Virus record (IMG/VR): IMGVR_UViG_3300005264_000121
Span: 1-24,872 of that record
From: a virus
Length of the DNA stretch: 24,872 bases
Direction: 5' to 3' (one strand)
Shown: positions 3 to 18,898 of the stretch, piece after piece
Position numbering within the stretch: position 1 is the first letter of the stretch
How the letters are laid out: every line of letters starts with the position of its first letter
The notes under the pieces: generated by a model
The model's input: only the letters and a program-made list of their open reading frames with translations
Told to the model about the DNA's origin: nothing
The model's database searches: none
Position numbers and translations under genes: made by a program

Positions 3-65
3 AAGACTCGTATGGAGAAAGCTGAGAAATATTATGATGAGAGGAAGAAAGAACAGGAGAAATAA
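3..65 (+). CDS. 3' end of an unidentified upstream gene (partial, left arm)
   Basis: Frame 3 is open from the window edge to TAA at 63-65 and encodes KTRMEKAEKYYDERKKEQEK. This is a lysine- and glutamate-rich stretch of the kind often found as a helical C-terminus. The stop lies one base before the ATG at 67, and the ribosome binding site of the next gene sits inside its last codons. That tight spacing is typical of a phage operon. The rest of the gene lies outside the window, so its function is unknown. An identical fragment is present at the right end. Confidence 0.5.
   Translation, partial: KTRMEKAEKYYDERKKEQEK
55..60 (+). promoter_or_regulatory. Ribosome binding site AGGAGA, left arm
   Basis: AGGAGA lies 6 bases before the ATG at 67. 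It decides the start of the small gene at 67 against the in-frame ATGs at 34 and 37, which have no such site. The identical site is present in the right repeat at 24813-24818. Confidence 0.8.
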
Positions 66-66
66 C

Positions 67-324
67 ATGGCTGGTAAATTAGGACGTCCCCGGAAGGATG
101 TGAACCGTTGTAATATAATAGTTGGAGATGAACAACGATCTATTATAATGAATAGTGTTATGGATTTGTTACAAGGAATTCCAGTTGGGAATATTGATTC
201 ATTGAGTCCAAAAGCATTTGTAGATTTAGCTACATTTATTTTAGGTGATAATAGTGGAGGAAAAGAAGAATCCAAAGAAACTCCATTAGATCTTTTTGGT
301 AATAATATTGTGGAGATGAAGTAA
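67..324 (+). CDS. Small AT-hook-like protein, 85 aa
   Basis: I do not recognise a family. The N-terminus MAGKLGRPRKD contains GRPRK, the core of an AT-hook, which suggests binding in the minor groove of AT-rich DNA; this is inferred from a short motif only. The rest is a small, mainly helical, acidic domain ending in an Asn/Gly/Lys-rich stretch. I chose the start at 67 because of the AGGAGA site 6 bases upstream, although the frame is open from the window edge. The first 12 codons lie inside the terminal inverted repeat and are duplicated at the right end, where the copy stops after 17 codons. The next gene begins one base after this stop, so the two are probably translated together. Confidence 0.75.
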   Translation: MAGKLGRPRKDVNRCNIIVGDEQRSIIMNSVMDLLQGIPVGNIDSLSPKAFVDLATFILGDNSGGKEESKETPLDLFGNNIVEMK

Positions 325-325
325 T

Positions 326-1522
326 ATGTGTATACATGATGAATATGATCACTATGTAGAATTAATTCCCAACAATCCTCAAATCATTGAGGAAGTTCCA
401 GTTGAAGAACGAACTCTTCCTATGTATTTAGCATACGCTGCTTTTTCAGATAGAGGTATGTTCCTATTACCTGCCCAATATCATACTTCTGAATTTTTCA
501 ATACCATGGTATATACTTTTCCATCTTCGGCATATAAAGTTCCAAGAGATCTTTTAACATCAGAAATTGTGCAAGCTGGGGCAACAGCTCTTCCAGAAGA
601 TGTTTATCTTTTTCCCGAGGAGTTTTTAACTCAAGAGATGGTTGAAATTGCATGCGAACTTCAACCTAAAAACATTCAACTCTTTCCAGACCAATTTTTA
701 ACTCAAGAATTGATTAATACTTCATTGACTTATGATCCTTCTTGTATTTATGGTATCCCTATTGAAATGCGCACTCGAGAAATATGCTTAATGGCATGTT
801 CTTTGCAAGGATCAAATTTAATAGATAATGTTCCAAAAGAGTTTATAGATTATGAAATGTGTTTAACGGCATGTTCTTCTGATGGGCTCGTTATTAAAAA
901 TGTTCCTACCAAATTTATTGATTTCAAAATGGTAGAAATAGCTGTGCAAAGTAATATTTTAGTTATTCCTTGGGCAGATGTCCATCACGAAAACTTGGTT
1001 TCACAAGGAATGTGTGATTTTGCATTTTCAATAGGGCATGAAACGATTAAGATTATCCCAAAAGATCTACAAACATTAGAGCAATGTATCATTGTTTCTA
1101 AAGAAAGTCCTCAGTACTTTATATACTTTAGCGACAAGTTCTTGACTGAAGAAGTTATTGAAAACATCATTAATCAGAATCCAGAATATCTAATGTTAAT
1201 GCGAGTTGGTAAATTAACAAAGAATTTATTCAATATTTTTCTAGAAAAAACAACAAATTTAGACTTGCGTTTTTATTTTGATAATATAGATAATGATGAA
1301 GAAAATAGTATAATTGTAGATAATAAAGTAAAACCTTTTACTTTTTATATAGATGATTATATCGATTCTGATACTTATGAATTGATAGAAGAAAGTTTTA
1401 ATGAAGAAGGTTTCGCTATTCGCACTGCCACTGATGAATCGAGTAGTGAAGGAGAGACAGATGATGAAGGAGAGTCAAGTAGTGAAAGTGAATCAAGTAG
1501 TGAGAGTGAGTCAAATAATTAA
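326..1522 (+). CDS. Helical-solenoid repeat protein, DUF4116-like, with Ser/Glu-rich tail
   Basis: This 398-residue protein is built of about eleven imperfect repeats of about 24 residues from roughly residue 22 to 300. The pattern is (L/I)-x-(V/F/I)-P-x-x-(F/L)-x-(T/D)-x-E-(M/I)-(V/C)-x-x-A, with clear units such as LFPEEFLTQEMVEIACELQP and DNVPKEFIDYEMCLTACSSD. The spacing and pattern resemble DUF4116 repeats, known mainly from intracellular bacteria and giant viruses, so I expect a curved alpha-solenoid that binds another protein. The last 27 residues are almost all Ser, Glu, Asp and Gly, encoded by an 18-bp tandem DNA repeat. GGAG at 312-315 precedes the ATG. No signal peptide or membrane segment is visible. 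The role is unknown; an effector or host-interaction protein is a guess from the repeat class and the accessory position. Confidence 0.8.
   Translation: MCIHDEYDHYVELIPNNPQIIEEVPVEERTLPMYLAYAAFSDRGMFLLPAQYHTSEFFNTMVYTFPSSAYKVPRDLLTSEIVQAGATALPEDVYLFPEEFLTQEMVEIACELQPKNIQLFPDQFLTQELINTSLTYDPSCIYGIPIEMRTREICLMACSLQGSNLIDNVPKEFIDYEMCLTACSSDGLVIKNVPTKFIDFKMVEIAVQSNILVIPWADVHHENLVSQGMCDFAFSIGHETIKIIPKDLQTLEQCIIVSKESPQYFIYFSDKFLTEEVIENIINQNPEYLMLMRVGKLTKNLFNIFLEKTTNLDLRFYFDNIDNDEENSIIVDNKVKPFTFYIDDYIDSDTYELIEESFNEEGFAIRTATDESSSEGETDDEGESSSESESSSESESNN
1472..1519 (+). repeat. 18-bp tandem repeat coding for the ESSSES tail
   Basis: Units at 1472-1489 and 1490-1507 differ at two bases (GAGTCAAGTAGTGAAAGT and GAATCAAGTAGTGAGAGT), followed by a partial unit at 1508-1519. 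It encodes the repeated Glu-Ser-Ser-Ser-Glu-Ser end of the solenoid protein. Such tracts change length easily by replication slippage. Confidence 0.8.
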
Positions 1523-1546
1523 AAAAAACAATTAAAGGAATATGAC

Positions 1547-2185
1547 ATGGCAGAATCAGAATTTGTAGGATCAGTATTAAATTCTTTACCTCTTGATAAA
1601 ATGATAGCATCTCCTTTGAATGCTATGATTCAAGCGCAAATATCAGCAAGTCATCAATATGCTGAATTTTTAATGAGTGTTTGTGTTAAGGATGGTGAGG
1701 CTGTTAATGTTCAATTTAAGTATGATGAAATATTAACAGATCAAGAAGGTCAGTATACAGGTAATCGTGAACGCACAATGACTATTCCATTAATTGCTGC
1801 TATTTCTCATCCTAATATGGGTATAGAACGAGGAACTATTGATTTTGATATTACAGTACACAATGTTTCTGAAAGTCGAACAACTGATTCAAAATCCGGA
1901 GGCTTAAATGCTTCTGTTGGATGGGGTCCATTTAAAGTTGCTGTTCATGGTAGCTTGTCTCACAAATCAGAGCAAACACGTAAAACAGATACAACAGCTA
2001 AATATTCTGTGCATACTGAAGTAAAACGTATTGAACCACCTGAAAGTCTTATGAAAGTTATTGATTTTATGACACAGGCATCATTAAAACCTGTTGTAAC
2101 TGGCAAGTTGGATAGTGGCGAATTACCTTCTCGTAAACTTTTACAGATGCCTAATCATAGGTCTCATTCAAAAGCAGCTCAATAA
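1547..2185 (+). CDS. DUF2589-family protein, 212 aa
   Basis: The N-terminal stretch at residues 8-45 has the layout I know from DUF2589: a short Leu-Pro-Leu start, then SPLNAMIQAQISASHQYAEF, an alanine-rich helix joined to a beta-sandwich-like part. The middle holds TIPLIAAISHPNMGIE, the second conserved block (x-x-P-L-x-A-(I/L)). The C-terminus ends with PPESLMKVIDFM. The family has no known function. The protein is soluble-looking, with no signal peptide. AAAGGA at 1534-1539 lies 7 bases before the ATG. The next gene is a paralogue 3 bases downstream, so the pair is probably co-expressed and may form a hetero-oligomer (inference). Residues 120-150 form a Ser/Gly/Lys-rich insertion that the partner lacks. 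Confidence 0.72.
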   Translation: MAESEFVGSVLNSLPLDKMIASPLNAMIQAQISASHQYAEFLMSVCVKDGEAVNVQFKYDEILTDQEGQYTGNRERTMTIPLIAAISHPNMGIERGTIDFDITVHNVSESRTTDSKSGGLNASVGWGPFKVAVHGSLSHKSEQTRKTDTTAKYSVHTEVKRIEPPESLMKVIDFMTQASLKPVVTGKLDSGELPSRKLLQMPNHRSHSKAAQ

Positions 2186-2188
2186 ATC

Positions 2189-2710
2189 ATGGGATTTTTT
2201 AAAAAGTCCAATAAACATAGTATATCAGATATCATTAAGGGCATTCAACATGCTGCTGACAGTGCAAGAGAAATAACTACTCATAATCATATTGAATTAA
2301 TGGATAAATTTTTCGATGTTGCTCCTGATGGGTCTTTTCATGCTAAAATGGTAAAGCTGTCTTTGTCACAAGACGATTCTGAACTATTGGTGCCATTAGT
2401 AGCTTTAATTCCTCCTTCCTCAATGCGTCTTGAAAAACTAAATGTTAAAATGAAAGTTAATGCTATAGGGGAATCCTTGGAAACGGATTTAAAATCTATC
2501 GAAGGTCACAATACATCTAGAACCCATTTTGATGTTTCAACTAATGTATCTGGAAAAAGAGGATTAGTTTCTATAGAAACAACTTTTGCTTCTTGTGAAT
2601 TGCCAGAATCTTTAATGAAAATTATAGATAGATTTACTGATAATATAAAGCCTGTCAATAACATTGACACAAAAAAGATTAATCTTGTAAGGGGCGTTAA
2701 GCCGAAATAA
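2189..2710 (+). CDS. Second DUF2589-like protein, 173 aa
   Basis: This is a diverged paralogue of the gene just before it. Matching blocks are an N-terminal helix (SISDIIKGIQHAADSAREI), a central LVPLVALIPPSSMRLEKL against TIPLIAAISHPNMGIERG, and a C-terminal LPESLMKIIDRF against PPESLMKVIDFM. It begins with a short basic segment (MGFFKKSNK) instead of the Leu-Pro-Leu start. The gap to the previous stop is 3 bases and there is no strong ribosome binding site, so translation is probably coupled. Function is unknown. A heteromeric partner of the neighbour is the simplest reading of a conserved pair. Confidence 0.68.
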   Translation: MGFFKKSNKHSISDIIKGIQHAADSAREITTHNHIELMDKFFDVAPDGSFHAKMVKLSLSQDDSELLVPLVALIPPSSMRLEKLNVKMKVNAIGESLETDLKSIEGHNTSRTHFDVSTNVSGKRGLVSIETTFASCELPESLMKIIDRFTDNIKPVNNIDTKKINLVRGVKPK

Positions 2711-2723
2711 AGATAATATATCT

Positions 2724-5700
2724 ATGACTATTAAAATAAAAAAAGGCATTGTAATAAACGATATAGTTTTAAGAAATATCGGTAATGATGCAACAGCGAT
2801 TCATTGGGATGTTAAGAATGAATTTGTTCATATGGATGAAAAATTACATCCAATTTCTGATGATTGGATTATGATTGAGGATTCTGAAAATGAAGATGCA
2901 AAGAAAAGGATAAAATTTTCTACTGTTGGAAATCAAACTGCACAAAATATTGGTGATTATGGAGTAGGGATTTATAAGAATGATACTACTGATCCTACAG
3001 TTTTTGAATTCAAAAAAATAGTTATAGGACCGTTACTTCCTGCAGGGTTATCTCCATTAGAAATAGATTCTACCGACACTGAAGTTGTATTAACTTTTAT
3101 AGCTGCAAATCTATCTATTGATGATATTGGAGATGGAATAACATATAAAAAATATCTTGCTGAGGAGCGATCTAAATTATCTGGAATTGAACCATTAGCA
3201 GATGTTACAACAATAGAGCGAGTAGAAACTGCTGAACACAGCATACTGGTTAGTAGTCACCAAGATATTTCTGCTCCTGGACAAGATATAGACGATGCTG
3301 CAGCAAAAAAACATACCCAAGGAACAGATACTACACTTGGTGTGATGACCGAAGCTATCAATATGGGTGGGTTTAGGGTTCAAAATGGAGCAGATCCAAT
3401 TTTAGACACTGATTTTGTTACAAAGCATTATATGGATGGTAATGTAACTGACACCGAAGCTATACATGTCGATGAAATTAATGAAATATATAATCTTAAT
3501 CCAGTTACAGTAACAGAAGATGATATTGTATTTGTTGTAGAAAAACCTGGAAGTGGGACTCCTCCTAACTGGTTTAAAAGAAAACTTAGTTTATCTCAAA
3601 TATATAGTCATTTTGATAATCTGCATGTAGTACATACTGATAAACCAAATGAATTTGTCAGTGCACCAGAGACAACCATAGCATCTAATTCTGATATATA
3701 TTTAGTAGAAGTGTATGATTCTGTTACATCGAGTTTTAATAAAAGAAGAATTACATTCCAGACTATGTCTAGCGGATTTGCATCAGATGTTTTTCATTAT
3801 CACACACCCAATGAGTTTTTCAATCTGATAGATAAAAAAGATGGTCCTTTTAGTGCTGATGATAGACTAGTTATGGAAGACTCTGATGATGAATATACAA
3901 AGAAATATATTAATTATGGTGATTTAGTAAATGATGCTACTGATCCAAAAGCCATTCATTATGATGGTGTAGGTGAGTTTGATACTATTGTCCATGAAAC
4001 AACTGTAGCAACAACAGATGTTTTTATTATAGAAAAACCAATGGACGATCTCACCAACCCTGGTGAAAAACGTAAAATTACTTTTGGTCAAATTCCAACT
4101 GGACATGATGCTTCTGCTGTTCATATGGAAGGAGTCAATGAGTATGCTGGTGTAGAACGTAAATCAAGTTCTCTTGATGCATCATATCTTTTATTAGAAG
4201 AATCTGAGGAAGAAACTCCATCAAATAGAGTTAAGAAACGAGTGCGAATCAGTGATCTACCTACCGGAGGAGGAGGTCAAGTTAACTATGGTATCAATCA
4301 AGGCGGAGACACTCCAATATATGACGGAAAGAGTGGTAGTGGTCTTATTTTCAGAACCATTAAATTAGGTACTGGATTTAAAGATCCGGGAGATGGTGAT
4401 GCAGTTGAGATTTCTTTAGACTTCGATAAAATAAAATCTGAACTTAATCTTCACCTAAAGGATGTTAAGAATGATGGTGTATTGTTTTGGGATGATAGAA
4501 AATCAGCTATGTGGCAGCACATGCTTTGGGATGCAGCAAGTGTTACTTCTATTGCAGTAGCAGCAGTAGCTGCTGGTAATTCAGCAGCAATAACAGTGCT
4601 AGAGGGTGAATTGGGTGCTCTTACCACCACTGTTGAAGGGATTCAGACAGAAATAGATGCTATGGATCTTAGAATCGCAGATAATAGTGAAGATATTGTC
4701 GGTTTAGATGAAAGAGTAACTGCTATAGATGATAATATGGTTATGGATGTTGTATCTGTTAATCCTAATTACACTAATATTTTAAAGGGGATTGTTTACG
4801 GAAAGGATGGAAATTATGTTAAATTAAAAAATATAGGAGTTTATGATAGTTTTATAAAGCCAAATACTCTTCAAATAACTGATGATTTTTTAAACGAAGC
4901 AGTAGAACTCAAGAGTGTAAATGTTGTTAGAAATATTCACAAAACTGCTGTAACCGGTTTGCTTCCAGGGCAATATTTTAATGTTATGTCGAATCAAATC
5001 ATAGACGTAGATGGATTGTATAATTTTAATGTTGCAAGTATAGTTCCTGGATGGGGAATGTCTTATGCATGGTTGAATGCAGGTGGTCTTCCATATCCTC
5101 CATACCAAAGAGTTCATATGTTTAATTCATTTGAGCCAAGCTCGTTTTCGCATCAAGATATAATTTTTCAATTAATTGATCCACCTCTCGATAGAACTAT
5201 TCCTAAAATACCAGGATTACAAGGACCTACAATTAAATCTATTGGAAAATGGTTTCAAGACGATGCTCAACATCTTGATTGGTCTCGTAGAATACACATT
5301 GAATTAGGAGGTCCAGTAGGAGCACCTTATTTACAACTTGTACCATTAGGATATGAAGCAATTGGTGTTGGGCCACAAGATAGTATTCCATTAGTTATAG
5401 GAAAAGAATTTGATGCAGTTAATTATAAGAATATCATAAAAATATCTAATATTCTTTTACCAACTACCACTAATATCGATAAAACATCTGCATTATACCA
5501 TGAGAGAAGTCCGGAGGGAGATGTGGCACTTAGTTACCCAATGTGGATGCCAATGATTGAAGATCCAGCCTACGATTCAACTATTTATGGCACAAATCGA
5601 ATGGGTAATATTTCTATTAGTGGAAATGTTCCTGATTATATACTTAAACTTATTACTCCCTTAGGAAGAAGACAGTATAATATAGGATATCCTCATGCTG

Positions 5701-5819
5701 GTTTTAGGTTTATGAGTTTGTTTACAGTATCTGAATATGAAGTTGATGCACATGTGGATGGAAAAAAAATAAAAATCTTCCTGAAAATTATGCTGTTGAT
5801 TTTTTACAAGGACAATTAG
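2724..5819 (+). CDS. Large modular fibre-like protein, N-terminal part (frame 0 of a probable frameshifted gene)
   Basis: This is a probable tail-fibre or virion-surface protein. The 1031-residue frame contains six copies of a roughly 45-residue repeat at about residues 25-66, 246-290, 303-345, 357-400, 409-455 and 465-511. The pattern is A-x-H-x-D-x-x-N-E-F ... D-x-x-(I/L)-(I/M)-E-(D/K)-S ... K-K-R-I-x-(F/I). Between copies 1 and 2 is a shared module (GITYKKYLAEERSKLSGIE, then HTQGTDTTLG, then NMGGFRVQNGADP) found in many phage fibres. A coiled coil spans about 625-672, typical of a trimeric shaft, and a beta-rich region follows. The last 16 residues (IKIFLKIMLLIFYKDN) read as out-of-frame sequence after an A8 run, and the natural continuation is in the -1 frame. 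The start is ATG with only a weak upstream AAAGATA. Confidence 0.8.
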   Translation: MTIKIKKGIVINDIVLRNIGNDATAIHWDVKNEFVHMDEKLHPISDDWIMIEDSENEDAKKRIKFSTVGNQTAQNIGDYGVGIYKNDTTDPTVFEFKKIVIGPLLPAGLSPLEIDSTDTEVVLTFIAANLSIDDIGDGITYKKYLAEERSKLSGIEPLADVTTIERVETAEHSILVSSHQDISAPGQDIDDAAAKKHTQGTDTTLGVMTEAINMGGFRVQNGADPILDTDFVTKHYMDGNVTDTEAIHVDEINEIYNLNPVTVTEDDIVFVVEKPGSGTPPNWFKRKLSLSQIYSHFDNLHVVHTDKPNEFVSAPETTIASNSDIYLVEVYDSVTSSFNKRRITFQTMSSGFASDVFHYHTPNEFFNLIDKKDGPFSADDRLVMEDSDDEYTKKYINYGDLVNDATDPKAIHYDGVGEFDTIVHETTVATTDVFIIEKPMDDLTNPGEKRKITFGQIPTGHDASAVHMEGVNEYAGVERKSSSLDASYLLLEESEEETPSNRVKKRVRISDLPTGGGGQVNYGINQGGDTPIYDGKSGSGLIFRTIKLGTGFKDPGDGDAVEISLDFDKIKSELNLHLKDVKNDGVLFWDDRKSAMWQHMLWDAASVTSIAVAAVAAGNSAAITVLEGELGALTTTVEGIQTEIDAMDLRIADNSEDIVGLDERVTAIDDNMVMDVVSVNPNYTNILKGIVYGKDGNYVKLKNIGVYDSFIKPNTLQITDDFLNEAVELKSVNVVRNIHKTAVTGLLPGQYFNVMSNQIIDVDGLYNFNVASIVPGWGMSYAWLNAGGLPYPPYQRVHMFNSFEPSSFSHQDIIFQLIDPPLDRTIPKIPGLQGPTIKSIGKWFQDDAQHLDWSRRIHIELGGPVGAPYLQLVPLGYEAIGVGPQDSIPLVIGKEFDAVNYKNIIKISNILLPTTTNIDKTSALYHERSPEGDVALSYPMWMPMIEDPAYDSTIYGTNRMGNISISGNVPDYILKLITPLGRRQYNIGYPHAGFRFMSLFTVSEYEVDAHVDGKKIKIFLKIMLLIFYKDN
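5762..5769 (+). other. A8 slippery site, probable -1 frameshift (programmed, mutational or sequencing)
   Basis: In frame 0 the codons are GGA AAA AAA ATA, so 5762-5768 form the heptamer A AAA AAA, the X XXY YYZ type used for -1 slippage. A -1 slip here leads straight into an open frame (AAT AAA AAT CTT CCT GAA) that continues without a stop to 7819. The fused product would be about 1,698 residues. I see no strong downstream hairpin. A missing base in the A run, from sequencing or a real mutation, would look the same. Confidence 0.6.
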
Positions 5820-5842
5820 ATGCGCAAAAAGAAGAAGTTATA

Positions 5843-7819
5843 TTGAAAGGATTAGGTATTGTAATTGGTCTTTTGTTGTCACCACATACAAGAAATGAAG
5901 CAATGGAAGGAACTCCAACTTCCTGTTTTTGGGGCCTTCTACAAGAAGATAGGCCAGATCCTGAATATTATATTGGTAATATAAAATTTATGAACATTAA
6001 TATGGATAACCCGTATGAACCAATTGGAACTATATCTTTAGGAACTTATGATAATAATACTCCGGGTGATACTATAAAAATCAAAATAGACCCTTTGCAG
6101 ATAAAGCGTCTTGGAATACAAGTTGAATCCTTAGATATGGGTAATAATAGTATTCATAATGTAGTAACTCCAACACAAGCAGAACTTAATAATGCTGCTA
6201 CTGTAGAGTATATTGAAAATGCTCTGATACCCCTTAGAGCTTTATCTCATGAAAAAGATCATGACGATGGAACTGACCCATTAGATGAAGATCTTGATAT
6301 GGGTGGTGATGAAGCACAAGGTGAAGGTGTTGTTATTCCTCATCGTATTGTCAATATGCGAGACCCTGATCCCTCCATTGGACATCACGGTGTTAACATG
6401 AGTTCTATGATTGACTATGTGAATCAACATGGTTCTGGTACCGATCCATATGCAGTACACTATAATGCTTCTGATGAAATCAATAGCAATGTTACATTAA
6501 AAAGCAACCCAACCGAATTAGATATTATTCTTATAGAAGATGCTTCTGATTCTTTTGCAAAAAAGAAAGCATATTTTTCTGGTGGCACTTCTACTCCTGG
6601 ATATACAATAGTTAATACAGCATCTTCACTTAATTTAACATCAGGTGATTATTGGAAGCAATATCTATGTGATAGCTCACAAAATGACATTATCATAACA
6701 TTGCCAATTATAGACAGTTCAACATCTGGACAATCTATTGTAGTAACATCTAAGCAAACATCCCTAACCACTTCACTTAAAGTAGAAAGTGGTTTCAGTA
6801 ATTTTATCAACGGAGGAGATATTTTTATTGGATTAACTCTATCATGCACTTTTATTCATGATGGTATAGATACTTGGACACTCTTGTCTAAAAATAGTTG
6901 GGAAAATCAATGGTTATATGCTCGTAATTTTGTATCAACTCATGGTGATGGAGGACATGCTGAAGGATCTTTATCTATGATTTTTAGTGATATGCCTCAC
7001 CAATATAATATCACTATATCTAATTTACACCATAATCAGGATTGTATGTATTACCTTCCAGATCCCAATGTCCAAGCAGCCACATTTGTTGTATCAAACT
7101 CTTTAAACAAAGTAACTTTTAATAATAGTGCAGATATATTACTCACAACTCCATCAACAAGCGGAACTCTAACAACAGAAGATTACCCTGGAATCATAAC
7201 AGCCATTCATTCAGGAACACCTGATGAAATACATAACATTCCAGAAAAGACTACAGTTGAATCAAATGACGTTGTACTTATAGAAGATAGTGCTGATGGT
7301 TGGAGTAAAAAAAGAGTTAAAACTACTTCTTTTATGGGTGAAAGTGATTTAACTATTCGGCATTTAAATGCAACATCTGATAGTTTAGATTTACCAGATG
7401 ATGCATTCGGGTGTTTATATATTATTGATATGAGTACAGATTTATATGATTTTGGTAGTATGCCCCAAATCAAATCAGAAAATGCTGGTAAAAGTATTTA
7501 TATAAAAACAAAAGGAAGTAGCGATAAGAATTGGGTGGGAATGAATGCATTTGTTGGACAATCAATTGATGACACTCAAATGACATATGCAATTTGGAAT
7601 ACCCATACTACTCAAAGATTAATGAGTGATGGAGTGTCGAATTGGATTATAATTAGTTCAAATGCAACCGTTGGTACTCCATTTATTGGTGGTGGTACAT
7701 TTCCAATTCCAGAATTTGCAGATAATGCATCTGCAATAGCTGGGGGATTATCAAATGGAGCGATGTATAGAACTGTAGATGTTTTAAAGGTAGTCCATGA
7801 ATCACAACTAATATTATAA
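5843..7819 (+). CDS. Modular fibre-like protein, C-terminal part (in -1 frame of the preceding gene)
   Basis: The only start for separate translation is TTG at 5843 with no clear ribosome binding site, and the frame is open back to at least 5768, so this is probably the second half of the gene at 2724. Modules by residue from the TTG: LDMGNNSIHNV at 98-107, a fibre motif; an IEDS repeat at about 203-246 (AVHYNASDEI ... ILIEDASDSFAKKKAYF); a beta-rich domain at about 255-350; a second beta-rich domain at 353-440; another IEDS repeat at 454-494 (AIHSGTPDEIHNIPEKTT ... VLIEDSADGWSKKRV); and a C-terminal domain ending ADNASAIAGGL ... MYRTVDVLKVVH. That ending is a widespread phage virion-protein C-terminal motif, absent from the upstream frame, which supports a single gene. 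Confidence 0.78.
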   Translation: MKGLGIVIGLLLSPHTRNEAMEGTPTSCFWGLLQEDRPDPEYYIGNIKFMNINMDNPYEPIGTISLGTYDNNTPGDTIKIKIDPLQIKRLGIQVESLDMGNNSIHNVVTPTQAELNNAATVEYIENALIPLRALSHEKDHDDGTDPLDEDLDMGGDEAQGEGVVIPHRIVNMRDPDPSIGHHGVNMSSMIDYVNQHGSGTDPYAVHYNASDEINSNVTLKSNPTELDIILIEDASDSFAKKKAYFSGGTSTPGYTIVNTASSLNLTSGDYWKQYLCDSSQNDIIITLPIIDSSTSGQSIVVTSKQTSLTTSLKVESGFSNFINGGDIFIGLTLSCTFIHDGIDTWTLLSKNSWENQWLYARNFVSTHGDGGHAEGSLSMIFSDMPHQYNITISNLHHNQDCMYYLPDPNVQAATFVVSNSLNKVTFNNSADILLTTPSTSGTLTTEDYPGIITAIHSGTPDEIHNIPEKTTVESNDVVLIEDSADGWSKKRVKTTSFMGESDLTIRHLNATSDSLDLPDDAFGCLYIIDMSTDLYDFGSMPQIKSENAGKSIYIKTKGSSDKNWVGMNAFVGQSIDDTQMTYAIWNTHTTQRLMSDGVSNWIIISSNATVGTPFIGGGTFPIPEFADNASAIAGGLSNGAMYRTVDVLKVVHESQLIL

Positions 7820-7832
7820 AGATAAAATTATG
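7815..7832 (+). repeat. 18-bp leader repeat, first copy (TATAAAGATAAAATTATG)
   Basis: This sequence, ending in the ATG of the gene at 7830, recurs exactly at 8246-8263 ending in the ATG of the next fibre gene. Its first 10 bases overlap the end of the upstream gene and the short gap. It has no strong Shine-Dalgarno core; the A-rich tract may serve as a translation enhancer, or it may be the edge of a duplicated module. Confidence 0.7.
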
Positions 7833-8222
7833 GGTGACTCTCCATTAAAGATAGTTCATTTTGAAGTAGCTGTTACTGGTGCATTGTATGTACTGGATGA
7901 AGATGTAAATACTTGTTTTCTTATAGATCTGGCCACATTTCCTTATAGTCTAGGATATATGCCTAAAATAACACCTGAAAATGCTGGATTTAGATTTTAT
8001 TTTAAAATCAATGCTCCTATTGATAATAGTGTTAGTATGTATATGGCAGGTTCTGGGGGTGATAGCATAAATCATCATCCATCTTCTTATAGGGTTATCA
8101 ATACAAGTATTACATATTGTTTTATGAGTGAACAGTTTACAGATAATGCATCAGCTAAAACAGGTGGATTGTCTGTTGGTGAATTATATAGAACCGTAGA
8201 TGTTTTAAAGGTAGTACATTAA
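7830..8222 (+). CDS. Small virion-type protein, duplicate of the fibre C-terminal domain, 130 aa
   Basis: This short protein matches the C-terminal domain of the gene before it. Shared features are an N-terminal strand region ending (Y/F)LIDLATFPYSLGYMP-(K/Q)-I, corresponding to YIIDMSTDLYDFGSMPQI, then ENAG, a variable middle, and the final DNASAKTGGL ... LYRTVDVLKVVH, which ends exactly at the stop codon. It lacks the IEDS repeats and the other modules of a full fibre. It could be a capping or decoration protein that uses the same anchor, or the remnant of a second fibre gene lost by recombination. It starts 10 bases after the previous stop with the AAAGATAAAATT leader. Confidence 0.65.
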   Translation: MGDSPLKIVHFEVAVTGALYVLDEDVNTCFLIDLATFPYSLGYMPKITPENAGFRFYFKINAPIDNSVSMYMAGSGGDSINHHPSSYRVINTSITYCFMSEQFTDNASAKTGGLSVGELYRTVDVLKVVH

Positions 8223-8245
8223 CTATAAACAATTAACATAAAAAA

Positions 8246-8263
8246 TATAAAGATAAAATTATG
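8246..8263 (+). repeat. 18-bp leader repeat, second copy (TATAAAGATAAAATTATG)
   Basis: This is identical to 7815-7832 and again ends in the start codon of a fibre gene. The gene at 2724 has a related leader (ATAAAGATA, 2709-2717). The gap 8223-8260 holds only A/T-rich sequence and this repeat. Confidence 0.7.
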
Positions 8264-10300
8264 ATAGAAATAGTAAATGGTGGAAGTTTTGATGAGGATG
8301 CTGTGCATTTGCACAGATCAAATGAAATTAGTATCTTAGATGAAGCCTCTATCCCATTGGATAATTCATCATGGATGATTATAGAAGATCCGCGAGCTGG
8401 TTTTCTGAAACGTAAGGTAAGTTTAACTAATCTATTAAATGCCAACCCTGTAACTCTTTCTTTGGACGTTGGTCAACAATTTGGTGAAATACCAGAAAAA
8501 ATTACATTAAATGGATTAGATCATCTCTTAATAGAAGATTCAGAGGATAATTTTGCAAAAAAACATATTGATATTTCAAGTATACCAATTGAAGAACTAA
8601 CAGATGGTGTTATCTATAAAAAGTATCTCGATACTGAACGCACTAAATTGACTGGTATTGAGGATGGGGCAGATGTAACTAATGCAACTAATGTCACAAC
8701 GGTTTTAAATACTCTAAGTGTAAATTCAATGGCTGATATCACATCTTCAGGAGCAGATATAGAGGATGCTGTAACTCTCAAGCATACACAAGGGTCCGAT
8801 ACTACCGTTGGAGTACAAACTGCATCTATTGATATGGGAGGAAATGCAATCGTAGATGTTGCTGATCCTACTCAAGCTCAAGAAGTAGCTACAAAAAATT
8901 ATGTTGACAATATCGGTTCACATGATCCAGAAGCATTTCATAAAAATATTTTAGATGAATTTGGACCATTACCTTTGAAAAGTGGAATTATAGATATAAT
9001 TGACAATTTCTTAATAGAAGATAGTGATAATTCTAACAGCAAAGCTCGCGTCAGTTTTATTAAATTGCAGCAAAGCATTACTTCTTTAGCCACTCAAGCT
9101 GAATCTTTAAATATGGGTAACCATTATATTAATAATGTCTTAGATCCTCAGTTTCTCCAAGATGCAACTACCAAAAATTATGTAGATACTTCACTGTTAA
9201 CAAAACAAGATGTTTTAACTAATGGTGTAGATACAGTAACGGCTGCTGAAATAGATCAGATTAAAAATATTGGTACTACAGTAATATCAGAAGATCAATG
9301 GACATCATTATCAAATACCAATACTGATTTTAGACTTGTTTATACAGCAACTACCACACAAGACTATTATTATACTTTCAGACCCAATATATCTGATACT
9401 TCTTCAGAATATGGATTATTTCATTTTATGATGAGAGCATCTGAACCTGGTGGATCTTATGAAGAATTATATGAAATAAAGGTATTTGTTCCAAAAGATT
9501 GTTACTATGATCAAATATCAAATCCTCCTATCATCTCAATAAAAGGCAACACACATTCAACATCCCCAGTTTTTCTTGGGTTATTACCAACTGCTCTAAA
9601 CACAAACTATCAATTTAATTTTTATGTTCATTTTAATGATTCAATAGTTGGTTTAGAATTATCTATTTATGATTTAGATGATGCAACCCTGAGAATGGGG
9701 AATACTACTGATACGGGAGGTTCTTCGTATCCTTCTGATGCAATTAGCACTCTTTCCTTTAAGAAAAATCAAAAAGTTTCTAATACTGATAGCATGGGTA
9801 GTGTTAAAATAGTTTCTAATGTTGATACGAGTGAACCGACATATAATTTAGTTGTTGGTACTGATCAACAACTAATTTATTCAAATCCTCTCTTAGACTC
9901 ACAAACTTTTTTCCCAGAAACAGCTCCAATTAAAGATGTGTCTTCTATCTATGCTGATGTTGGAGGTTATAATGGTATTTTTCTAGAAAATCCTATTTTA
10001 GGCCAACCTCAATATTGGAGAATCTCTTTTGATTATAGTGGAAAAATTTTAAATAGAAATGCTGGATTATATGTTAAATTAATCAATCCCTTGTCTGGAT
10101 TCACCAGAAGGCTTCTCCTTACTCTTCCAGATGGAGAAATAGAACAAACCTTCATAACTGTAGATATTTCTACTTATTCTGATATAAATAGTTTGGCCGC
10201 TCCATTTGGATCTGGTTTAGGGGGATATCAGATATGGTTTGAAGTCGTTAGTGATGATATGACTGTAATTATAAGAGATGTTACTCGATTGAATTACTGA
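8261..10300 (+). CDS. Modular tail-fibre-like protein, 679 aa
   Basis: Probable receptor-binding or fibre protein. Three IEDS repeats lie at about residues 14-56, 63-106 and 225-266 (cores MIIEDPRAGFLKRKV, LLIEDSEDNFAKKHI and FLIEDSDNSNSKARV). Between the second and third is the module GVIYKKYLDTERTKLTGIE, then HTQGSDTTVG, then DMGGNAIVDVADPTQAQ with ATKNYVD. It is the same order as in the gene at 2724. A second MGNHYINNVLDP/ATTKNYVD unit sits at 284-308. The last 330 residues are beta-rich with no repeats and probably form the binding tip; they lack the DVLKVVH ending of the two genes before it. The stop codon region overlaps the convergent minus-strand gene by 7 bases. Confidence 0.75.
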   Translation: MIEIVNGGSFDEDAVHLHRSNEISILDEASIPLDNSSWMIIEDPRAGFLKRKVSLTNLLNANPVTLSLDVGQQFGEIPEKITLNGLDHLLIEDSEDNFAKKHIDISSIPIEELTDGVIYKKYLDTERTKLTGIEDGADVTNATNVTTVLNTLSVNSMADITSSGADIEDAVTLKHTQGSDTTVGVQTASIDMGGNAIVDVADPTQAQEVATKNYVDNIGSHDPEAFHKNILDEFGPLPLKSGIIDIIDNFLIEDSDNSNSKARVSFIKLQQSITSLATQAESLNMGNHYINNVLDPQFLQDATTKNYVDTSLLTKQDVLTNGVDTVTAAEIDQIKNIGTTVISEDQWTSLSNTNTDFRLVYTATTTQDYYYTFRPNISDTSSEYGLFHFMMRASEPGGSYEELYEIKVFVPKDCYYDQISNPPIISIKGNTHSTSPVFLGLLPTALNTNYQFNFYVHFNDSIVGLELSIYDLDDATLRMGNTTDTGGSSYPSDAISTLSFKKNQKVSNTDSMGSVKIVSNVDTSEPTYNLVVGTDQQLIYSNPLLDSQTFFPETAPIKDVSSIYADVGGYNGIFLENPILGQPQYWRISFDYSGKILNRNAGLYVKLINPLSGFTRRLLLTLPDGEIEQTFITVDISTYSDINSLAAPFGSGLGGYQIWFEVVSDDMTVIIRDVTRLNY

Positions 10301-12492
10301 TTTATATTATTACTGATTACCTGTGCAGTACTAAAACCAAGAGTAGCTATTAATTGATTTATTAAGAGTTCTTTATTTTTATTGCTTTCATATTCAGCAG
10401 ACATTGCAGCTAATTTAGAACCTATATTAGGGTCCCAAAGTATATCTACAAATTGCTTAACTCCTTTTTTAGTAACTATAGATTGTATAGCATCTGCCAA
10501 AATAGTTTCTTTTGAGATAAATGGCTTCAACGATCTCAAAGCAGGGGAAATGAATCTAGATTTAATATCGGTATTGCTAACACCTTTTTGAGGTGGAATA
10601 GTTAAACCTGTTTTACGAATCAAATTAAAAAATGTATAAAAATCATGATATTGATCTGGTCTTAGAGCAACTTTCATAACATCTGATTTCGCTTTACTTC
10701 CAAAAATTGATTTCCACATTTCTCCACCAATATCTGGATTCATTTTTCCTGTTGTGGGGATATTTCCAAATTGATATAAAATATGATCTCCTACAATACT
10801 CTTCCATATCTCTTTACCATTTTCTCTTGTATAAATAGCATTCTTTACTGCATTAGCAATTGTAGGATCGCTATTTTTTGTAGATAAAATATAACTTCCA
10901 ATATCTCTAATATCTTCATCAGGAATTTTAGAAGTCTTCATTAAAAGATTTTTTTTGTTCTTTAATTGATCACCTAATTGAGCATATTTTTTAGCTTCTG
11001 TGGAAGATGTTTTTCCTAATTTTGAACTTCCCTCAAATATTAAAGAAGCTATTTCTCGAGCATGCTTATATTCAGGTGATATTTTATCAGCCTCAGACAA
11101 TATATCTTTTTTTAGAGTGTCTAATTCTTTGTTGACAACCTTTTTAAATGAAGACATATTTTCTAATTTTTGACTGTAAATACCTTCATCAATTTGTTTT
11201 TTGATTTTATCTATTTTTTTAATCGGGATATCGTAACTATATACATTTTCCCCTTTAACACTTTTGACTTTTATCAAATCTCTTGTAATTTTTTTTAAGG
11301 CCGATGCTTCTGCCACTGTAATGTTTTGTCTATCTATCTTTTCTGTTATTTGATCAACTATTTTTTTGGTATTTATGGTGGGGGATTTTTCAAATGCCAA
11401 TTCATAAAATGGTCTGATTAATTTTGCAGCTTCTTTTGACAATCCTTCTAACTCTTGGTTTACATATATTTTTGCTGAAAAATTAGGATTTTTTGTTGAT
11501 TTTGGAAGTAGATTCGTAACAAATCTTGGAACTCTTTCCATAAGATTATCTACTCTTTGTTCATAAATCTTTCTTGTCTCTCTAGAATTTAAATTTTTAA
11601 TAGTGCTTATGGCTTCAATGTTTTCTAATTTTTCAGCTATATTTAATGGAATACCAAATCTATTTGCTTGAAATTCTATATCAGATATTTTTTTGATATT
11701 TTTTTTATCAAAAACATTCATTTTATCCAAGATACTATTAATTCTTGCGTTTTTACTACCAGGAGTAGGAATATTGAGAAAGTCTAATGTTTTTTTACTT
11801 CCCCATTTTAAAACTCTACCAACTCCTTCTCCAGCTAATCCCAGTCCAACTACTGTTCCAGCATCCCATGCATCTTGAGACATAGGTCTATCTTCTCCCA
11901 ACTCATATTTAGCATATTGTTGCTTAGCTGTTTCACCTAAATATGCTCCAAGAGCTTCAGTAGCTGGAACTGCTAATTTAGCACCAAAAGTAGCTGCTTT
12001 TTGAGTTGCTTTTCTTGCTAATACGCCAGCCCCACCTGTCATATATGTTGTAGGATCAAGCGCTATTTTATTTCCCTCTCTACGTAAGAAATTTACAACC
12101 CCAGAACTTTCTTCCGAATACAATGTACCATCTTTATCTCTAAAAACTATTTCTCCATTTTGAATAGCATAATCATCCGGAGATAAATCTCGATACTTTG
12201 CAAAAATTTCTATTTTTTTATTGGGATCATGCACCATATTAGCTAATCCAATAGCAATTGGAGATGTTACTTTTAAAGGATTTGATATTTCAAGTTCTTG
12301 TAATTGACTTGGATAATCAATTATGTCTTCTTCTCCCACCAGAGATTCAGAAATACCAGAAACACCAAACATCCCAACATCGTGATTTTTTTTAGAAAAT
12401 TGTTGGACACGATTTAATAAAGAGTTGTCTTCTACAGGAGACAGATAATCTTGATTGAAAGTTTGTATTTTATTTAATAATTCTTTATCCAT
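10294..12492 (-). CDS. Large ejection/internal virion protein, P22 gp16-like position, 732 aa
   Basis: This is the last gene of the morphogenesis operon and probably the largest of three proteins injected with the DNA. P22 has gp7, gp20 and gp16 (609 aa) in this order; the assignment rests on position, size and character, not on a clear motif. Residues 150-230 are rich in Gly and Ala with hydrophobic stretches (GGAGVLARKATQKAATFGAK and GTVVGLGLAGEGVGRVL) that could associate with or cross a membrane. The segment DYAIQNGEIVFRDKDGTLY at 107-125 resembles modules I associate with podovirus internal proteins. The middle and C-terminus are long charged helices. I see no lytic transglycosylase active site. 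The start overlaps the preceding stop as TAATG. Confidence 0.7.
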   Translation of the reverse strand: MDKELLNKIQTFNQDYLSPVEDNSLLNRVQQFSKKNHDVGMFGVSGISESLVGEEDIIDYPSQLQELEISNPLKVTSPIAIGLANMVHDPNKKIEIFAKYRDLSPDDYAIQNGEIVFRDKDGTLYSEESSGVVNFLRREGNKIALDPTTYMTGGAGVLARKATQKAATFGAKLAVPATEALGAYLGETAKQQYAKYELGEDRPMSQDAWDAGTVVGLGLAGEGVGRVLKWGSKKTLDFLNIPTPGSKNARINSILDKMNVFDKKNIKKISDIEFQANRFGIPLNIAEKLENIEAISTIKNLNSRETRKIYEQRVDNLMERVPRFVTNLLPKSTKNPNFSAKIYVNQELEGLSKEAAKLIRPFYELAFEKSPTINTKKIVDQITEKIDRQNITVAEASALKKITRDLIKVKSVKGENVYSYDIPIKKIDKIKKQIDEGIYSQKLENMSSFKKVVNKELDTLKKDILSEADKISPEYKHAREIASLIFEGSSKLGKTSSTEAKKYAQLGDQLKNKKNLLMKTSKIPDEDIRDIGSYILSTKNSDPTIANAVKNAIYTRENGKEIWKSIVGDHILYQFGNIPTTGKMNPDIGGEMWKSIFGSKAKSDVMKVALRPDQYHDFYTFFNLIRKTGLTIPPQKGVSNTDIKSRFISPALRSLKPFISKETILADAIQSIVTKKGVKQFVDILWDPNIGSKLAAMSAEYESNKNKELLINQLIATLGFSTAQVISNNINQ

Positions 12493-13847
12493 TATAGATT
12501 TCCAGATTGTTCTTGTTGAAAGAATTGATTGGTAATCTGATCAATTTCTTCTTCGTTTAAATTTGGGTTTAATCTAGCAAACTCATTTCTAGCTATTTGA
12601 TAATTTTTGTTATTTTGAGTTTTAGATTCATTTATTTCTTTCATATTCTCTAGAGTAATTGGATTTTCTTCTTGATCTAAAAATGCAATTGGTTTACCTT
12701 CATCATCAAACATAATACTACCATTTTTCAATGCATATGTATATCTATCAGATATTAATGTCATATTATTGATAGTAGCATCTAATTTAGCAACAAATGT
12801 TCTTCCGTCATCTGATTGTAAAAATCTTTTCCATCCCATTTCTGTATTGATGTTGGGGAACATTGCTGTTACCCTTTTGACTTCTGTAGGAGTTAAAGCA
12901 CTTCCATATAATCTATGAACTTCCTCTCCAATTGTTTGCATATATGTTGACACCAACCCAAGATATTTATCATAAGCTTGTTCATCAGTATCACTGCTCT
13001 TGACTCCAAGTTTTCTTTTTAATGATAAAGTTGCACTTTTTAATTGCCCTGGAACAGATAAGAATTGTGTAACAGATGGAGTTAATTGCTTCTTAGTTTC
13101 TTTTAAACCAGATAAACTATTTTTAATGTTCATAAGATTTTTTTGTAAATGATTTTTAGTGCTTTTACCCATATCTATATTAATGTTTGTTCCAGAAGAA
13201 CTAGCTGCTTTATCTTTGGCTAAATCGTATAGTTCATATTCTTTTGATTTAGAATCATATTGTTTTTGTTCTGCAATTAATTTACCAAGATTAGATTGAG
13301 TCTGCTTTGTTTCTTTTGGAAATAATTCTTGTTTTGCAATATCAAAAAATTCTTGCATCCCCTTTGGCGGTTCATCTCCAAACATAGCCAATGCCTCAAA
13401 GTATGCTTGTGCCATACCATTTTTATCATTATCTTTTTTAGAATTTAAATAAGTTCCTAAAATACCACCTATTGTTTTAATATTGTTACCTGTTTGTGTA
13501 GAAAGTGATTCAGCAAAACTTTTTATTGCTTGTGGAGAATTTTCTAAAAATGGCATTTTGGAAATATTTTCCATATAGGTTGTTCCAGCAGCTGTATTGG
13601 CCACAGGTCTAAAACCTTTCAAATATTTATCTAATAATGTCAATGAATTATCAAAATGTACTTGTTCTTGTTTGTTTATAGATTCTTGTTCTTTAAGTTG
13701 AAATTCACGTTCTTGTTGAATAACTTGCAATTGCATCATTTGAGATTGAATTTTCTTTTCTTTTTTTCGTTGTGCTATTCCAAATCCTTTTTCAAGACCA
13801 CTTGCAAAACCTTGTACACCTGCCCCTATTCCAGTTAAACCTGACAT
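12492..13847 (-). CDS. Ejection/internal virion protein, P22 gp20-like position, 451 aa
   Basis: Residues 1-24 are glycine-rich (MSGLTGIGAGVQGFASGLEK), common at the front of podovirus DNA-transfer proteins. A strong coiled coil follows at about 26-65. A conserved-looking segment at about 305-332 (EEVHRLYGSALTPTEVKR followed by an FPN) resembles a block seen in internal proteins of many podoviruses. The rest is helical and charged. P22 gp20 is 471 residues and occupies the same slot. AAAGGA 7 bases before the ATG fixes the start. It probably forms part of the extended ejection channel. Confidence 0.68.
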   Translation of the reverse strand: MSGLTGIGAGVQGFASGLEKGFGIAQRKKEKKIQSQMMQLQVIQQEREFQLKEQESINKQEQVHFDNSLTLLDKYLKGFRPVANTAAGTTYMENISKMPFLENSPQAIKSFAESLSTQTGNNIKTIGGILGTYLNSKKDNDKNGMAQAYFEALAMFGDEPPKGMQEFFDIAKQELFPKETKQTQSNLGKLIAEQKQYDSKSKEYELYDLAKDKAASSSGTNINIDMGKSTKNHLQKNLMNIKNSLSGLKETKKQLTPSVTQFLSVPGQLKSATLSLKRKLGVKSSDTDEQAYDKYLGLVSTYMQTIGEEVHRLYGSALTPTEVKRVTAMFPNINTEMGWKRFLQSDDGRTFVAKLDATINNMTLISDRYTYALKNGSIMFDDEGKPIAFLDQEENPITLENMKEINESKTQNNKNYQIARNEFARLNPNLNEEEIDQITNQFFQQEQSGNL

Positions 13848-13860
13848 TATATTATCCTTT

Positions 13861-14667
13861 TTAGCCTAAGAAAGATCCAAGTCCCATACCGGCAATATTC
13901 CCTACTCCACTGAACAATGAGCCCATCATACTAGATTCGCTCTGAGCATTCGACATGCTGGCCTGTGTTTGTAAATTTCTTTGGTTTTGATACGGCTGTA
14001 ATGCTCCCTGGTATGTTGGTATCAAAGAACTAGAATAACCAGTGATCCCACCAATTTGTTGAGCTGACTGGCTTGGAGTAAGACCATATATCTGATTCCC
14101 TTGGAGACCAAGACCACTATATTGAGATATGGCATTGTTTCTGGCTTGTTCTCGCATCATTTCAGCGTTTCTATTGAATTCTTGGCTGCTTTGTATGCCT
14201 GCGCTGCTTTGAGCCCAATTTGACCCCAATCTTCGACTCAGATCATCATCTAATGCTTGACGTTGAGAAGATATTCCTTTTTCCAATGCTGCTGATACAG
14301 GTAATTCTCCTTTAAGAGCTCTGTTGGCTTTATCCTGAATCAATTCTAAATTTTCATACTGTATTTTCATTGCAGGATTAAGAGTTTCTAAGTACTCTTC
14401 ATATGGCATTTTAACTAATTTATTATCATCATCATATTTATATCCAGAGGTTTCCATTAGTAACGGCATAAATTTGTCTTGAAGAGATCTTGAGTCTTGT
14501 AATTGTGAAAGAATTTCTTTTTGTATTTGTATCTCTTCTGAAGTGGGAGGTGGAACACTGGCACCGCCGCCTTTACATTCCACTACAGGTCCTTGATATT
14601 CATATGATTCTTCAAAGATAGTCTCTCCTGTAACCATATCAATAATTATTTTATTATAAATTTTCAT
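13861..14667 (-). CDS. Ejection/internal virion protein, P22 gp7-like position, 268 aa
   Basis: The N-terminus (residues 1-36) reads KIYNKIIIDMVTGETIFEES then YEYQGPVVECKGGGAS. This 'tG...eeSYeY.GPv..CkGG' opening is one I associate with small internal or ejection proteins of podoviruses. The centre is helical and the last 90 residues are rich in Gln, Ser, Gly and Met, ending in a glycine-rich hydrophobic tail (GVGNIAGMGLGSFLG). P22 gp7 is 229 residues and also precedes gp20 and gp16. The start overlaps the preceding gene by 4 bases (ATGA), so translation is coupled. Confidence 0.66.
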   Translation of the reverse strand: MKIYNKIIIDMVTGETIFEESYEYQGPVVECKGGGASVPPPTSEEIQIQKEILSQLQDSRSLQDKFMPLLMETSGYKYDDDNKLVKMPYEEYLETLNPAMKIQYENLELIQDKANRALKGELPVSAALEKGISSQRQALDDDLSRRLGSNWAQSSAGIQSSQEFNRNAEMMREQARNNAISQYSGLGLQGNQIYGLTPSQSAQQIGGITGYSSSLIPTYQGALQPYQNQRNLQTQASMSNAQSESSMMGSLFSGVGNIAGMGLGSFLG

Positions 14668-15104
14668 ATTTTAATATCCTTAACACCAACAAGAAAATAA
14701 CTATTATTTTTTGTAATTTTATATGGTGATGTTTTAGTTATACATCTAACAAATTTAGATAAATATTTAAATTTATCATTATGTTTTACATCAACAATAA
14801 TCCGATTAATATGATTATCAAGTAAAAATTGTATAAGAAATCTTATCATTTTTAATAATGTATTGTTTACCTTTTTTCTTTTGTCTTGTTTTATCCAAAA
14901 ATATTCTAAGACAGGATAGATTGACTCTTTTAAAGAGATACTAAAAAAACCATATATAGTACTTTTATTTCTATTAATACATAACCAAAAAATTCGTTCA
15001 CTTGTATCAGTGAAGAGTTCATTGTCTGTTAACCCTTCATGTTTTAAACTATATTTAATAAAATCAAAATGTTGTTTATGCCATGCTTGAATAAAATATA
15101 ACAT
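14664..15104 (-). CDS. GNAT-like acyltransferase-fold protein, P22 gp14-like position, 146 aa
   Basis: This small basic protein sits between the fibre or needle gene and the first ejection protein, the slot of gp14 in P22 (172 aa). Its layout (an N-terminal helix with Trp/His, IFWLCINRNKSTIYGFFSIS as paired strands, VLEYFWI, then a long helix with KMIRFLIQFLLDNHINRIIV) fits a shrunken GNAT fold. GNAT-like proteins occur at this place in several podovirus operons. The usual acetyl-CoA loop (Q/R-x-x-G-x-G/A) is replaced by DKRKKVNN, so enzymatic activity is doubtful. It overlaps the previous gene as TAATG and the next as ATGA. Confidence 0.5.
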   Translation of the reverse strand: MLYFIQAWHKQHFDFIKYSLKHEGLTDNELFTDTSERIFWLCINRNKSTIYGFFSISLKESIYPVLEYFWIKQDKRKKVNNTLLKMIRFLIQFLLDNHINRIIVDVKHNDKFKYLSKFVRCITKTSPYKITKNNSYFLVGVKDIKI

Positions 15105-16141
15105 TATTCATCAATTTCAATTTCTTCAATCCTCATACTAGATGATTGAGTTCCATTAAAGTAATCATTAAGTATAAATGGAGCGCTTTCTGGTATTGCT
15201 AAATTTGATCCAAGTCTAATGTATATATTTAAAACATCTAATGATGTTACTGTATATTCATGTCTAATACTAGATATTTCAGTTTGATTTGCCCATGGAG
15301 GTATAAAAGAAGCAACAGAAGCAGATGCGTTAGTATCAGCATTGAAAAACATTGCAATTATTAAATCTGGTTGACCACTCCAATGAGAAGTTCCACCACA
15401 AACAAAAGATATTATTAATTTATTGCCAATTCTTTTAGGTGTATACGCGTAATGCATATACTGTAAACCTTCAGTATTTTGTGGTATTGTGTCATCTAAT
15501 GGAATAATATTGGTACCAAAAATTTCAAACTTACTTGAATCTTGGATGTAAACTGAATTAACAACTGATCCAGAGATAAATGCAAGCTTTTCTTTAGTTA
15601 TTGATCCATCTTCATATGCATCTGTGCCAATCAATGCTCCTCCACCATCAATACCAACACCAGTATGATCATGTAAATTCCCACCGTCAACAGAATTATC
15701 TACAATTTCTACTTGAAGTTCTTCAATACTTTTAGAAGGCAATTCATACCAATATGATTTACCTATAATTATATTAAGTTGATATCTTAATTCTTCTAAC
15801 TCTTGACGCAATGAATTAGATAGATATGGGCTACCTCCTGGAAATGGATTTAATGTTGCTTGCATATTAGAAACATCTTCAGAAGATCCTCCTACTCCAT
15901 CTGGATTGCAGTTATTAATAACATTTTGGAATTCATCATTCCACTTTGCAGCATAAATTGTTTCAAATGGAATAGCTGGACTTTTCATACTCCAATTACC
16001 AGATGATCTTAAGGTGGAATTGGGAATATTTTCTATTTGAGTGTTAAATAGATCTAACTGTTGTTTAATAGAATTTAATTGATTTCGTAATGAATTATCA
16101 CTATTTATTACGTCAGAAAAAATTTTTTGTCCATATTTCAT
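15104..16141 (-). CDS. Short tail fibre or tail-needle-like protein, 345 aa
   Basis: Residues 12-40 form a heptad-like coiled coil (LRNQLNSIKQQLDLFNTQIE), suggesting a trimer. Residues 66-128 contain WNDEFQNVINNCNPDGVGG, MQATLNPFPGG and LRQELEELRYQLNIIIG, a block I recognise from many phage fibre proteins. LHDHTGVGIDGGGALIG at about 157-173 is another common fibre motif. The last 150 residues are beta-rich and look like a compact knob. In gene order it takes the place of the P22 tail needle gp26, some relatives of which also end in a globular knob. Needle and short fibre remain equally possible. Confidence 0.65.
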   Translation of the reverse strand: MKYGQKIFSDVINSDNSLRNQLNSIKQQLDLFNTQIENIPNSTLRSSGNWSMKSPAIPFETIYAAKWNDEFQNVINNCNPDGVGGSSEDVSNMQATLNPFPGGSPYLSNSLRQELEELRYQLNIIIGKSYWYELPSKSIEELQVEIVDNSVDGGNLHDHTGVGIDGGGALIGTDAYEDGSITKEKLAFISGSVVNSVYIQDSSKFEIFGTNIIPLDDTIPQNTEGLQYMHYAYTPKRIGNKLIISFVCGGTSHWSGQPDLIIAMFFNADTNASASVASFIPPWANQTEISSIRHEYTVTSLDVLNIYIRLGSNLAIPESAPFILNDYFNGTQSSSMRIEEIEIDE

Positions 16142-16152
16142 AATATTTCTCT

Positions 16153-17811: not shown

Positions 17812-17812
17812 A

Positions 17813-18526: not shown

Positions 18527-18544
18527 TGGTATTATCCTATATTA

Positions 18545-18898
18545 TTAAACTACTTTGTTTTCTTCTACTTTATTTTCTTCTACTTTATCAGGAACTGACA
18601 TTCTTACAAATTTTTTAATGAACATTTCTTTCGAGTAAAATTTAACAGTTCCAGTTTGAAGGCCCTGAGTAATAAAATGAGTAAATTCTTTAAAGCAATT
18701 TTTAGTTATTTCTTTATCAAATTCAACGATAGTAATAGTTCCATCATCATCAATATTAGTAGTGATAGATAAGAAAGCCTTATCAATGATTGCTAAATTG
18801 TCTCTTGTAATCTCAATAGCTTTCAATGGTTCTGGTCTCTTGATCACTGTAATTACTGATTCGTTTTCTACATTATCTGTAGTTGTTTCAAGTGTCAT
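18545..18898 (-). CDS. Unidentified virion-operon protein, 117 aa
   Basis: I do not recognise this protein. It lies between the coat and connector genes, with 18-base gaps on each side, so it is expressed with the structural genes. It has a small mixed alpha/beta core (residues 18-100) with basic and acidic patches. The C-terminus repeats the five residues VEENK twice (positions 106-115), encoded by a 15-bp tandem repeat. AAGGGA lies upstream of the ATG. P22 itself has no gene here; a head decoration or assembly cofactor is possible from position only. Confidence 0.55.
   Translation of the reverse strand: MTLETTTDNVENESVITVIKRPEPLKAIEITRDNLAIIDKAFLSITTNIDDDGTITIVEFDKEITKNCFKEFTHFITQGLQTGTVKFYSKEMFIKKFVRMSVPDKVEENKVEENKVV

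Follow-up and report, generated by a model that had tools for sequence, protein, structure and literature searches.

Phage lysis cassettes with their holin, endolysin and spanin genes are the closest described systems for the gene pair studied here, as relatives of this pair adjoin endolysins and small membrane proteins and are found at the end of late operons; the two proteins themselves, named A and B in the following, are however neither holin, endolysin nor classical spanin. Type 10 secretion and lysis-cassette-mediated release, for example in Yersinia entomophaga (PMC10847048), likewise involve bacterial islands with lysozyme, holin-like proteins and exported enzymes, although the pair is not known to be a component of those systems. 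With beta-pore-forming proteins, A shares S/T-rich flanks, an alternating hydrophobic hairpin and an aromatic tip in a low-confidence prediction, but it has no sequence or fold match to solved members. Both proteins match the curated Pfam profile PF11655 (DUF2589), a family that is known in phages, bacteria and archaea and that itself has no assigned function. In the literature searched, which covered few subscription journals and no bioRxiv preprints, no functional claim for DUF2589 was found, and the family is named solely for an expression change in Archaeoglobus, with A. fulgidus possessing a cluster of DUF2589-related genes (PMC3949148); that study is silent on an A/B pairing and on a link to peptidoglycan hydrolases. 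The results described below give this functionally blank family a concrete, testable role.

The window analysed here is the complete stretch of 24,872 nucleotides of a viral IMG/VR record (IMGVR_UViG_3300005264_000121). On its minus strand lie the portal, scaffold, coat and adaptor-like genes of a head and connector module together with further late genes, which bears out the phage setting that the first-pass annotation had assumed. A and B belong to a cassette on the plus strand, in which a DUF4116 gene precedes them and the tail-fibre genes follow (Table 1); three bases separate the stop of A from the start of B, and 13 bases the end of B from the tail-fibre gene. As the first-pass annotation had proposed, A and B are DUF2589 proteins, scoring 84.3 and 40.6 bits against a curated cut-off of 23 bits, and the alignments comprise profile positions 1-153 and 2-153 of 154, respectively, so that nearly the full profile is covered in B as well and the domain is spanned in both. 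The motifs quoted there were confirmed, with TIPLIAAI and PPESLMKVID occurring in A and LVPLVALI as well as LPESLMKIID in B, and the view that the two genes are diverged adjacent paralogues is supported by BLASTP (31% identity over 107 residues, E 2e-7) and by the comparison of both proteins as profiles with hhalign (probability 96.5, E 8.4e-10). No Pfam domain besides DUF2589 was detected in A or B at E values up to 1, and no PHROG family, including virion families, matched significantly. Compared with the only close relative of the window that was found, the IMG/VR contig L001 of 25155 bases, dN and dS are 0.07 and 0.83 for A (dN/dS near 0.08) and 0.16 and 1.31 for B (dN/dS near 0.12), and these low ratios indicate that A and B are real genes under purifying selection.

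Table 1. Features of the DUF2589 gene pair and of its surroundings in the window
Feature	Position	Strand	Remarks
Unknown ORF, 96 aa, opening the plus-strand module	34-324	+	Start inside the terminal repeat
DUF4116-repeat protein, 398 aa, upstream of A on the same strand	326-1522	+	PF13475 E 2.5e-12; 54% identical in L001
DUF2589 type A protein, 212 aa, soluble	1547-2185	+	PF11655 E 1.5e-23; 87% identical in L001
A, N-terminal amphipathic helix, residues 16-46	1592-1684	+	Predicted helix; conserved LP, IxxPL, Q31, F41
A, central TIPLIAAI block, residues 79-86	1781-1804	+	P81 invariant, A84 nearly invariant
A, S/T-rich flexible hairpin, residues 106-147, tip GWGPF	1862-1987	+	Low pLDDT, 36-47
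A, most conserved polar motif SHKSEQTRKTDTTAKY, residues 138-153	1958-2005	+	R145, D148, A151, Y153 invariant
A, PPESLMKVID, start of C-terminal helix	2036-2065	+	E166 invariant, D173 99%
DUF2589 type B protein, 173 aa, soluble, helix-sheet-helix plan without the hairpin of A	2189-2710	+	PF11655 E 4.2e-10; 75% identical in L001
B, VPLVALI block	2390-2410	+	P69, L70 invariant
B, PESLMKIID motif	2603-2629	+	P139, E140, M143, I146 invariant
Tail-fibre-like genes directly downstream of B	2724-10300	+	PHROG tail-fibre matches for 8261-10300
terL-size protein (putative, by size only)	22850-24451	-	

An AlphaFold model of A based on 63 sequences predicts the N-terminal helix followed by strands at residues 54-64, 70-81 and 95-106, the flexible stretch, a further strand at 149-160 and a C-terminal helix at 166-180, with a pLDDT of 79-86 in the core (residues 21-80). 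Within the flexible stretch, hydrophobic and polar alignment columns alternate at residues 118-137 around the tip G(W/F)GPF, which is flanked by S/T-rich segments in the same 63 sequences, and the segment that comes after these residues is the best conserved one of the family (E142, T144, R145, D148, A151, Y153). B appears to have the same plan as A minus the hairpin, as judged from elements of a low-confidence read-through model. Neither protein contains a signal peptide or a membrane segment according to hydropathy; the largest 19-residue mean is 0.93 in A and 1.11 in B, so that the membrane-spanning segment of a holin is absent. Also a peptidoglycan hydrolase or peptidoglycan-binding domain, as expected for an endolysin, is lacking by Pfam, and so are the hydrophobic N-terminal segment, the anchor and the lipoprotein signal of spanins. 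No solved structure matching A or B by sequence or fold was found. The model of A gave no Foldseek match at E 0.001 or better, and its best fold similarity, to a helix-plus-sheet segment of MscK, had a Z score of 4.4; SecB/EagR-like and MscS-like fold matches were set aside as too weak. A complex model of A and B was calculated from 12 naturally in-frame A-B read-throughs, leaving out mixed fused and single alignments, in which MAFFT placed A-only rows on B, and it was too poor for judging an interface (pLDDT 46, pTM 0.35).

The occurrence of the pair was analysed with separate profiles for A and for B in 54 loci that are non-redundant at 85% identity of A. These loci come from GTDB genomes, plasmids, viral contigs and a single faecal phage scaffold. 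By direct score, a second DUF2589 gene adjoins A in 49 of these, in the order A-B (32 loci) or B-A (17 loci) and usually with gaps of 4-125 bases. In four of the five remaining loci the neighbor clusters with DUF2589 by BLAST, and the three that were searched with Pfam (L013, L085, L087) were found to contain a second adjacent DUF2589. Exactly two DUF2589 genes, adjacent to each other, are present in each of eleven bacterial genomes and one plasmid, and among 398 sampled genomes of one phylum only 9 possess DUF2589, in 7 cases as an adjacent pair. A and B are distinct subtypes of DUF2589 that are almost always neighbors in phages as well as in bacteria, and it follows from these counts that DUF2589 is rare and inherently two-part and that the pair is not confined to phages. 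The conservation in other phages that had been anticipated was recovered in several phage groups, namely the type of the window, a GC-rich type and a large group of marine contigs (L110-L174). In the GC-rich phages (L002-L008, L096, L107), A and B precede a 205-residue protein, which is followed by the portal gene. This protein (6077-6694 in L003, and relatives) directly follows B and has no Pfam match; H and C motifs discerned by eye may represent a permuted papain-like (NlpC/YiiX-type) pattern. Just upstream of A, these phages encode a coiled-coil protein (L003, 4339-4911) that ends in a C-terminal membrane segment and is possibly a lysis or anchor protein. In the human faecal phage-like scaffold MT839761.1, two DUF2589 genes are split by a gene for a 259-residue protein and are followed downstream by genes for a zinc-ribbon-like protein and then a peptidoglycan-binding N-acetylmuramidase.

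The surroundings of the pair were unexpected. Bacterial loci inspected by hand contained phage-type lysozymes, an N-acetylmuramidase, a CHAP protein, GH19 enzymes and pesticin-type muramidases. Protein searches over all loci located a peptidoglycan hydrolase within 3 kb in 58 of the 85 loci from bacteria or plasmids; among marine viral loci, 36 of the 39 that have flanks of 2.5 kb or more on both sides had one as well. After removal of redundancy the bacterial loci comprised 18 of 41 with and 23 of 41 without a detected hydrolase within this distance. Up to 2 kb from the pair there are 0.171 hydrolases per kb, as against 0.006, 0.003 and 0 further out, an about 27-fold fall beyond 2 kb that serves as an internal control, since these distances were searched with the same queries. 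A Pfam scan of 114 same-strand neighbors within 3.3 kb, which were taken from greedy longest-ORF calling so that some genes are missed or spurious, detected Phage_lysozyme seven times, Muramidase and GH19 twice each, GH108 once and Mor-type activators eight times, to which the one CHAP protein is added; among the families listed (25 of 66) for 82 control genes more than 5 kb away in the same loci, none of these hydrolases was found. The lysozymes of Burkholderia and Ralstonia were found by protein search only, and a neighbor on the Vibrio plasmid L012 that had been considered as a peptidoglycan-binding protein was rejected, as Pfam detected no such domain. At least five unrelated families are represented among the enzymes near the pair (phage lysozyme, pesticin-type, N-acetylmuramidase, GH19 and CHAP), and the link can therefore not be the inherited synteny of one operon; as non-homologous enzymes occupy one slot, it argues for function rather than shared descent. 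Endolysin-type proteins of pair-carrying phages have matches among the PHROG lysis families. In a marine phage of 73 kb, B and A come after portal-size, coat-size and tail-fibre-like genes and a short hydrophobic protein, and they are followed by two small genes and a peptidoglycan-binding endolysin, with all of these genes on one strand. The linkage to hydrolases expected of a lysis-associated module is thus present in relatives, whereas no peptidoglycan hydrolase was recognized in the window record or in L001.

In bacterial genomes the pair also occurs apart from recognizable virion genes. Islands in Leminorella and at locus L188 contain, next to the pair, a lysozyme, a peptidase-like protein, an RNase-A-like toxin domain (RNAse_A_bac, CdiA-CT), a LuxR regulator, two small membrane proteins of holin-like make-up and a secreted RNase that resembles barnase (PDB match E 4.7e-6). 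In soil Pseudomonas, the gene directly upstream of the pair encodes a Mor-family activator, and one clade of these bacteria has a pesticin-type muramidase on the opposite strand. Barnase-like secreted RNases adjoin the pair at L038 (9774-10262), L058 (9690-10172) and L188 (3687-4160); they were missed by Pfam and matched to barnase by PDB search.

On this basis we think, with a probability of roughly 45%, that A and B form an ancient module that works together with peptidoglycan degradation as an accessory of lysis or release, and a lysis or release module is our best reading, more likely than a part of the virion. It fits the interchangeable hydrolases, the late-operon position in phages and the holin-like and exported proteins in bacteria. 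A and B would act jointly and probably form the heteromer that the first-pass annotation had supposed; as soluble proteins without a leader, they should accumulate in the cytoplasm, and they would act when the hydrolase acts. The amphipathic hairpin modelled in A suggests a membrane step and most likely would disturb the envelope, which is the weakest link of this proposal. That the hairpin perforates or destabilizes an envelope membrane and thereby lets very different peptidoglycan hydrolases and exported nucleases act or escape, which would make A and B an unrecognized two-component lysis factor common to phages and bacteria, we regard as rather unlikely in this specific form. Archaeoglobus fulgidus possesses no peptidoglycan. 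Its DUF2589 cluster, the hydrolase-free bacterial loci and the hydrolase-free window make a strict tie to peptidoglycan doubtful. The two-gene unit stays close to enzymes that break the cell wall, also where an unrelated enzyme has taken the place of another, and, if confirmed, it would represent a new type of component for phage lysis and for bacterial lysis-dependent release.

The phage-specific role in virion structure or host interaction that the first-pass annotation had envisaged is not supported for the family, since the pair is widespread in bacteria and is found most often beside peptidoglycan hydrolases and further genes of lysis type. For the window phage itself such a role is possible, because a tail-fibre gene follows 13 bases on and the record contains no hydrolase, and a function in host interaction is conceivable because the plus-strand cassette has diverged more than the core head genes, as host-range regions do. 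In this explanation, A and B would be packaged or injected, either as minor structural proteins or in association with the tail fibres, which would agree with their place in a fast-diverging module (69-87% nucleotide identity to L001, compared with about 95-97% for most core head genes) and next to portal or fibre genes in other phages. However, many bacterial loci hold the sole copy of the pair in the genome without virion genes, A and B match no PHROG virion family, and the link to hydrolases is left unexplained, so that we consider virion proteins to be distinctly unlikely.

The contents of the bacterial islands could also be taken to mean that A and B, either released themselves or as carriers of released proteins, act together with muramidase and RNases on competitors, as several hydrolase types are found at one place and a secreted barnase-like RNase, the CdiA-CT domain and the pesticin-type muramidase are nearby; A and B possess no secretion signal, though, an immunity gene was not found, and the phage copies reside in late operons with endolysins, which renders such an antibacterial or exotoxin island unlikely. 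Improbable, in our view, is a cytoplasmic chaperone or restraint in the manner of SecB or EagR that holds the hydrolase or another cargo until release. Soluble proteins encoded beside the gene of an enzyme would be suited to this task, and the model of A has weak structural similarity to SecB, SciW, EagT6 and DcrB (Z 2.3-3.0), but every fold match stays below Z 5 and is not distinctive, and the unrelated folds of the partner enzymes argue against a common binding surface.

The comparison with L001 also concerns the architecture of the window. The plus-strand module (34-10300) has 69-87% nucleotide identity to L001, with 94% in fibre3, while the minus-strand module (10294-24756) mostly has about 93-97%, with two genes at 88-90% and most core head genes at about 95-97%, and this inequality indicates that the two convergent modules have different histories and were subject to mosaic exchange. 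The DUF4116-repeat protein upstream of A has an acidic, Ser-rich tail and is encoded by the fastest-diverging gene between window and L001 (dN/dS about 0.36). The fibre gene at 2724-8222 consists of three ORFs with breaks near 5.82 and 7.82 kb, and its counterpart in L001 is a single intact ORF of 1751 residues (2718-7973); the split may result from a frameshift, from decay or from an assembly error. The window is bounded by a perfect inverted terminal repeat of 104 nt (1-104 and 24769-24872), and a search for contigs running past this repeat yielded only the known relative. The inverted repeats are either the true ends of a linear genome, which would then be a 25-kb genome with virion genes and without recognized replication or lysis genes, or they mark an assembly break at inverted repeats. 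The window's relative IMGVR_UViG_3300013101_000085 has its own perfect inverted terminal repeat of 123 nt at the same place, and the sequences of the two repeats differ.
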